From Candidatus Gastranaerophilales bacterium (GTDB lineage Bacteria > Cyanobacteriota > Vampirovibrionia > Gastranaerophilales > Gastranaerophilaceae), in NCBI GenBank assembly GCA_944323425.1, contig CALUSL010000002.1:62001-126000 (forward strand): a DNA stretch of 64,000 bases. The letters are read 5' to 3'. The position numbers and the translations under genes were made by a program. A model generated the notes under the pieces. It worked only from the letters and a program-made list of their open reading frames with translations. It was not told the origin of the DNA and did no database searches. Below are positions 55,643 to 56,685 of the stretch, piece by piece; the first letter of the stretch is position 1; each line of letters begins with the position of its first letter.

Positions 55643-56515
55643 TTACTGAGGAAGCAAGCTCAATACAAGCATTGAACGTGTATTTGCCTGCGCCATCATA
55701 GAAGATGCTGTTTGCTGTAATATCATATTTCTCGTATAATTAGCCGTTTCTGTCGCAATATCAGCCTCCATCACAGTAGAATATGCAGCCGTATAATTTT
55801 CATACTTGGTATTTAATGATGCCAGAATAGAGTCCATCCTATTCTGTGCAACGCCGGCATTAGAGACACGCTCTTTTACTATATCAGAAGCAGCGTCAAT
55901 CTGGTCAATAAACTGAGCCGCAGCAGAAGCAGTCGCAAATGCTTCTTCTACAGTCGCAAACATTGCAGTCGAACCTGTAATATTCAATGAATCAGTATCC
56001 GTCTTTAGAAAGACATTTTTTATCTGCAATGAGTTGAGGGTCGGATCTGAGTTTGCTCCTATCTGTATTCTTACACCGGTACCGGCATCAACAGAACCAT
56101 CCAATAACTTTATGTCACCAAAACTTGAGTCTTTAGCGAGTCTGTTTATTTCATCAATTCTTGATTGAGCTTCATTTATTATCTCAGTCTTTTGAGCATC
56201 TGTTAATGTTTCATTTGATGCCATTGTTGCAAGATCCCGGATACGTTCAAGCTCATCGTTAATTGATTGCAAATCGCCTACAGCGGTCTGAGCCATATTA
56301 TAGCCCATCTGTACATTAGAATAAGCCACCCGCATACCGCTAAGTTGATTATTCAACTCTGAAGCGTAATAATATCCGGCAGGATCATCTGCCGCAGAAT
56401 TTATTCTGTAGCCTGTTGTAAGACGTTGCAGACTGGTGTTCAAACTGTTACCAGCCGCATTAAATGCGTTTGTGGCACGCAAATACGCCATATTTGTATT
56501 TATTGAGAGAGACAT
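55643..56515 (-). CDS. Flagellin (short, D0/D1 domains only)
   Basis: Flagellin polymerises into the flagellar filament after export through the flagellar type III apparatus. The N-terminal SLSINTNMAYLRATNAFNAAGNSL, RLTTGYRINSAADDPAGY and the C-terminal NYTRNMILQQTASSMMAQANTRSM are the D0/D1 signatures. The total is 290 residues, with only a short variable middle (about 150-210), so surface-exposed domains D2/D3 are essentially absent. The ATG at 56515 has AAGGAAT upstream; the frame is open to 56548 but passes through a hairpin. A sigma-28-like promoter lies upstream. No other flagellar genes are in the window. Confidence 0.93.
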   Translation of the reverse strand: MSLSINTNMAYLRATNAFNAAGNSLNTSLQRLTTGYRINSAADDPAGYYYASELNNQLSGMRVAYSNVQMGYNMAQTAVGDLQSINDELERIRDLATMASNETLTDAQKTEIINEAQSRIDEINRLAKDSSFGDIKLLDGSVDAGTGVRIQIGANSDPTLNSLQIKNVFLKTDTDSLNITGSTAMFATVEEAFATASAAAQFIDQIDAASDIVKERVSNAGVAQNRMDSILASLNTKYENYTAAYSTVMEADIATETANYTRNMILQQTASSMMAQANTRSMLVLSLLPQ

Positions 56516-56540
56516 TTTAAATTCCTTTTCATTTTTTACC

Positions 56541-56557
56541 GTTCTCATCCTGAGAAC
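56541..56557 (-). promoter_or_regulatory. Leader hairpin with a GGA loop, possible CsrA site
   Basis: On the minus strand GTTCTCA-GGA-TGAGAAC is a perfect 7-bp hairpin with GGA in the apical loop, in the flagellin leader 26 nt before the ATG. The Shine-Dalgarno region AAAAGGAATT also holds GGA. This two-site layout matches known CsrA control of flagellin in Bacillus. Confidence 0.5.
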
Positions 56558-56658
56558 AGTCGATACGCATACACCAAAACGAACTCCATCTTCAGCCCCA
56601 TCGCAAAAGACAGACTCGAATCAGCCCTGTATACTGTTTGTTTTATTTGTAGATAAGT

Positions 56659-56685
56659 TTATGGGGAGGGATTTCTATCCCTTTA
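56659..56685 (-). promoter_or_regulatory. Sigma-28 (FliA)-like flagellin promoter
   Basis: On the minus strand TAAA is followed by a 15-bp spacer and CCCCATAA. This fits TAAA-N15-GCCGATAA at 4 of 4 and 6 of 8 positions. The spacer carries a GGGAT/ATCCC inverted repeat. The predicted start is near 56652, giving a leader of about 137 nt. Confidence 0.55.

Follow-up and report, generated by a model that had tools for sequence, protein, structure and literature searches.

The best-known role of CsrA is that of a global regulator in Gammaproteobacteria; what it originally did is a matter of debate. In B. subtilis it has two sites in the leader of the flagellin mRNA hag, one of them over the Shine-Dalgarno sequence (PMC7652899); fliW adjoins csrA, and CsrA has a C-terminal extension and N55, a residue on which the binding of FliW depends in both Bacillus and Campylobacter (PMC7829508). 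The flaA leader of C. jejuni is 45 nt long and forms two stem-loops (SL1/SL2), with GGA in a stem-loop and again at the ribosome-binding site, and compensatory changes in the stem; it also sequesters or localises CsrA (PMC4894983). In the E. coli glgC leader and CsrB, a GGA in a hairpin loop tethers CsrA, from where it bridges to the Shine-Dalgarno sequence; CAGGAUG is the repeat element of CsrB, and typical SELEX ligands of CsrA have a stem of mostly 4 bp or fewer and a six-nucleotide loop (PMC7652899).

The flagellin leader described here resembles all three. It shares with hag the two putative sites, the neighboring fliW and csrA and the form of the CsrA protein, but fliW–csrA is distant from the flagellin genes, of which there are several, each with its own stem. 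With flaA it shares the GGA in a stem-loop, the GGA at the ribosome-binding site and the compensatory changes, but it has a presumed length of about 137 nt, counted from a guessed transcript start, and its Shine-Dalgarno site is predicted by folding to be single-stranded. The tethering loop would correspond to that of glgC, and the loop sequence includes the CsrB repeat, but the E. coli system is controlled by sRNAs, whereas FliW is the expected antagonist here.

The flagellin gene and its leader

The window analyzed is a 64,000 nt stretch (C2:62001-126000) of a 2.03 Mb genome (G000), the nearest named relatives of which are MAGs of Candidatus Gastranaerophilales. This agrees with a previous sequence-only reading of the window, which had placed the locus among the non-photosynthetic relatives of Cyanobacteria. 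The features of the flagellin gene and its leader are as follows.

55643–56515, minus strand: flagellin gene, 290 aa (MSLSINTN...), ATG at 56515–56513, stop codon ending at 55643
56522–56528, minus strand: Shine-Dalgarno region with GGA (56525–56523), putative second CsrA site
56538–56560, minus strand: hairpin ACUGUUCUCA-GGA-UGAGAACGGU, loop GGA at 56550–56548, putative high-affinity CsrA site
56567–56634, minus strand: weaker, longer stem in the 5' portion of the leader (RNAalifold, four species), some pairs being broken in G002
56659–56685, minus strand: TAAA-N15-CCCCATAA (TAAA at 56685–56682, CCCCATAA at 56666–56659), putative promoter of unproven type

The encoded protein has Flagellin_N (3.6e-31) and Flagellin_C (1e-14) domains, and its orthologues in the three other members of the genus are 89, 88 and 69% identical. 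An open reading frame list made by program had placed a start at 56548, inside the hairpin; since in the relatives the ATG at this position falls out of frame, it was rejected in favor of 56515. An Rfam search of the window returned two tRNAs and nothing else.

A hairpin with a perfect 7-bp stem that presents GGA in the loop, and a further GGA in the Shine-Dalgarno region, had both been claimed for this leader, and both are borne out by the sequence. GTTCTCA-GGA-TGAGAAC forms the 7-bp stem, which reaches 10 bp once flanking U-G, C-G and A-U pairs are added. The loop GGA begins at −35 relative to the flagellin ATG and the Shine-Dalgarno GGA at −10 (AAAAGGAATTTAAA-ATG), so that the two lie 25 nt apart, start to start. 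When the 136-nt leader was dinucleotide-shuffled 20,000 times, an equally strong GGA-loop hairpin arose in only 4 of the shuffles, and the 63 nt around the hairpin have a folding z of −3.15, while that of the whole 193-nt region is ordinary (−1.04). The stem, of 8–10 bp with a loop of 3 or 5 nt, is longer than in typical SELEX ligands, and the affinity for CsrA may be lower for this reason. Immediately 5' of the hairpin lies a GCGTATCG(TC) block (56561–56571, minus strand) that is also present at the corresponding position in L045, L046, L049 and L051, and is among the best-conserved parts of the leader over two genera.

Conservation of the hairpin in the genus and its sister genus

The genus comprises four genomes, each with an orthologue of the window flagellin. 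Alignment of their leaders, which the sequence-only reading had proposed as a check for covariation, revealed the hairpin and its GGA loop in all four species, with one pair varying between U-G (two species), C-G (one) and U-A (one). The Shine-Dalgarno region is identical in G001, G002 and G003. In the sister genus g6, the hairpins of the window-type flagellins are altered: GGUCUA-UGGAU-UAGGCC in G117, CUA-CGGAU-UAG plus an outer stem in G073 and, judged by eye, a stem enclosing AAAGGAA in G136, and of the nine window-type flagellins examined there the other six have no clear GGA loop. Retention throughout the four-species genus, together with changed or missing hairpins in the sister genus, indicates an element that is robust at the level of the genus and is subject to turnover from one genus to another.

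CsrA, FliW and FliA of the source genome

Searches for csrA, fliW and fliA, also proposed with the original reading, detected all three. Profile matches to csrA (PF02599, 81.1 bits against a cut-off of 27) and fliW (PF02623, 129.4 bits) are adjacent on C3, 49 bp apart, with csrA (94 aa) immediately downstream of fliW. The pair is remote from the flagellin genes and is flanked by genes for a repeat protein and a TPR-like protein. The CsrA has the RNA-binding residue R44, the FliW-binding residue N55 and the C-terminal extension; L4, R44 and N55 are kept in all 30 CsrA sequences from related loci. It matches the FliW-bound CsrA of Geobacillus (5dmb_D) over residues 2–70, and the match to gammaproteobacterial CsrA is shorter (52–54 residues). 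FliW in turn matches 5dmb_A, and solved FliW structures were found at 1e-14 to 1e-18. A FliA/WhiG-type sigma factor was identified by TIGR02479 (234.1 bits, curated cut-off 189.6). FlgM (PF04316) gave no match in the genome, while three control genomes did match, although a diverged FlgM could escape this search.

CsrA-type sites on other flagellin leaders

The comparison was extended to 115 distinct, mutually related flagellin leaders, which were collected by similarity to the window flagellin and represent 14 genera of the family. Hairpins were scored by the number of base pairs, plus half for each G-C and minus half for each G-U pair. GGA is the leading loop trinucleotide at −45 to −30, with 31 of the 115 leaders scoring at least 5.5 and 24 at least 7, and the only trinucleotides that come near it are those overlapping it (AGG, GAT, ATG). 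Among about 127 non-flagellin leaders of the source genome, one reached 5.5 and none 7. The stems that hold the loop can be wholly different in sequence, as in taaagta-CGGA-tacttta and agctgcttgc-ACGGAC-gtgagcagtt, or atttttaca-GGA-tgtaaaaat and actgtttaca-AGGA-tgtagacagt. Stem arms pair much better with their own partner than with arms swapped among leaders, both in the full set and in 47 dissimilar leaders (4.02 versus 2.33, sd 0.26; 0/2000).

A GGA lies within the Shine-Dalgarno zone of 111 of the 115 leaders. The CsrA-consensus core AC(A)(N)GGANGU is present at −45 to −28 in 53 leaders, against 0.27 expected from shuffles that ignore the kinship of the leaders; the trinucleotide, swapped-arm and csrA-minus controls keep kinship at least partly. 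Either the core or a GGA-loop hairpin was found in 68 leaders from 11 of the 14 genera, and the site was absent from the sampled leaders of the other three. In the source genome it occurs in four of the five typical flagellin leaders. One flagellin, L021:17376-19462, carries a GLUG-repeat insert, and its N- and C-terminal parts are in different, overlapping frames, the result of a frameshift, an assembly error or a programmed shift.

The specificity of the site was examined in 191 family genomes with the pattern ACANGGAWGT, 5–35 nt, AAAGGAG, an overlapping double match being counted once. There were 57 matches, 51 in csrA-bearing genomes and 6 in others, compared with 9 and 7, respectively, for the reversed-pattern control. 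At least 43 of the 57 directly precede a listed flagellin; of the rest, two that were read are flagellins too, and more are near-identical in sequence to one of these. Both matches in the source genome are flagellins, and the window flagellin is itself missed because its loop and Shine-Dalgarno sequence differ from the pattern. In G111 (L202:1555-2388), a CsrA-type hairpin (UUUACAUGGAUGUAAG) and AAAGGAG stand ahead of a gene for a 277-aa protein without a flagellin start, which is a possible candidate for a non-flagellin CsrA target.

Co-inheritance of csrA, fliW and flagellin

Among the 191 family genomes, mostly MAGs, flagellin was detected in 76, fliW in 72 and csrA in 70. All 70 csrA-bearing genomes have both fliW and flagellin, and none of the 115 flagellin-free genomes has csrA or fliW. 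The two genes are adjacent in 68 of the 70, the other two cases being broken by contig ends. In a phylum-level set, FliW was found in 71 of 386 genomes, including 19 from outside the family; in four of these 19 (G195, G199, G201 and G209) a flagellar hook-type frame (FlgL-like, by eye) is followed by fliW and csrA. Two family genomes that are about 99% complete, G053 and G085, have flagellin with csrA and fliW undetected, and a CsrA-type site still precedes the flagellin of G053.

The putative promoter region

The original reading had also described a sigma-28-like promoter upstream of the flagellin ATG. The sequence TAAA-N15-CCCCATAA is indeed present, and the genome encodes FliA, but the box is not in register over the genus and its consensus is near chance genome-wide. 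Transcription of the flagellin by FliA from this box, which would be compatible with control by CsrA, is thus a tentative proposal that we consider somewhat doubtful. The box agrees with the FliA consensus (TAAA-N15-GCCGATAA) at 6 of 8 positions in the −10 and lies some 150 nt upstream of the gene, the sigma factor scores above its curated cut-off, and no other 6-mer is as enriched upstream of the family flagellins as TCCCCA (22 leaders against 2.9 expected). On the other hand, TAAA is lost in G002 and the spacing is 16 instead of 15 in G001 and G003, TAAA-N14-16-CCGATAA matches the genome 17 times and its reversed control 10 times, none of the 17 matches being at a recognised flagellar gene, and the anti-sigma search noted above (FlgM) was negative. 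A sigma-70 scan found no minus-strand promoter upstream of the window flagellin. Given the enrichment of TCCCCA, the box may in part be a genuine element of this lineage; the longer TTCCCCA (56660–56668 in the window) occurs in about 21–22 leaders against 3 expected, and may belong to a promoter specific to the lineage.

A palindromic, operator-like element, TTTAGTATGGAA..TTCCATACTAAA, is common to the genus and is located 100–200 nt upstream of other flagellins, including those on C8 and C18 of the source genome (upstream regions L016, L017 and L014) and at L021:15762 and L021:16927. It is missing upstream of the window flagellin. The element suggests a second, transcriptional regulator of flagellins.

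Proposed mechanism and alternatives

Taking B. subtilis hag (PMC7652899, PMC6529632) and C. jejuni flaA (PMC4894983) as models, we consider it very probable that the window leader is a translational switch, repressed by CsrA and relieved by FliW. One pocket of a CsrA dimer would hold the GGA of the hairpin loop and the other that of the Shine-Dalgarno region, and the bridging protein would shut ribosomes out of the leader. FliW would then bind the C-terminal part of CsrA and release it, and unexported flagellin, by binding FliW, would restore repression. Binding, repression and the switching of partners are inferred here from Bacillus and Campylobacter. What the sequences themselves provide is the sites, their spacing and conservation, the specificity for flagellin, the fliW–csrA pair and its co-inheritance with flagellin. 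The likeness to Bacillus hag control that was originally suggested is supported by the csrA–fliW pair, the two GGA sites and the conserved hairpin; two of the three outcomes named in advance as refuting it, a genome lacking csrA and fliW and a hairpin that is not conserved, did not occur.

A stable stem just before a Shine-Dalgarno sequence can stabilise an mRNA, and the stem in the window is stronger than those of usual CsrA ligands, so the hairpin might be a structural element (for mRNA stability or ribosome standby) with a coincidental GGA in its loop. This is improbable, since unrelated stems elsewhere hold the loop GGA at the same distance, which no non-overlapping trinucleotide does, and the matching pattern is nearly confined to csrA-bearing genomes. 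Less probable still is a terminator or attenuator, for which a stable stem in a leader would be suitable; the hairpin is followed by AAAAAAUGAAAAGG instead of U, a terminator scan found no such site, and this reading was rejected. An unlikely alternative, although the most plausible of the three, is that CsrA does bind but that the leader serves mainly to sequester or localise it rather than to repress the window flagellin. The flaA mRNA titrates CsrA in C. jejuni (PMC4894983), and several flagellin leaders of the source genome carry sites, but the GGA in the Shine-Dalgarno region favors direct repression, and the pattern search finds almost no other target genes that titration would protect.

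Significance

Direct translational control of flagellin by CsrA and FliW, the reading preferred here, is a known module, and the lineage is new for it: the open-access papers searched describe neither CsrA nor FliW in Melainabacteria, and neither is mentioned in PMC3787301, PMC4040986 or PMC5877343. A non-photosynthetic gut relative of the Cyanobacteria appears, from its sequence, to brake flagellin synthesis with the switch of Bacillus and Campylobacter. Nearly all flagellated members of the family have the csrA–fliW pair and those without flagella do not, and this strict tie between csrA and flagella is the most interesting by-product of the analysis. Whether CsrA is a dedicated flagellin regulator here, rather than a global one, is in our judgment evenly balanced: it would be inherited only with fliW and flagellin, act on several flagellin mRNAs through independent stems around the same GGA loop, and possibly replace the FliA–FlgM checkpoint. 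Since csrA occurs only with fliW and flagellin across the 191 genomes, and the target pattern that can be detected is mostly flagellin mRNA, the idea that flagellin control is the ancestral or minimal job of CsrA becomes directly testable in this family. If CsrA is indeed dedicated to flagellin in these bacteria, they would provide a living example of its proposed original role.
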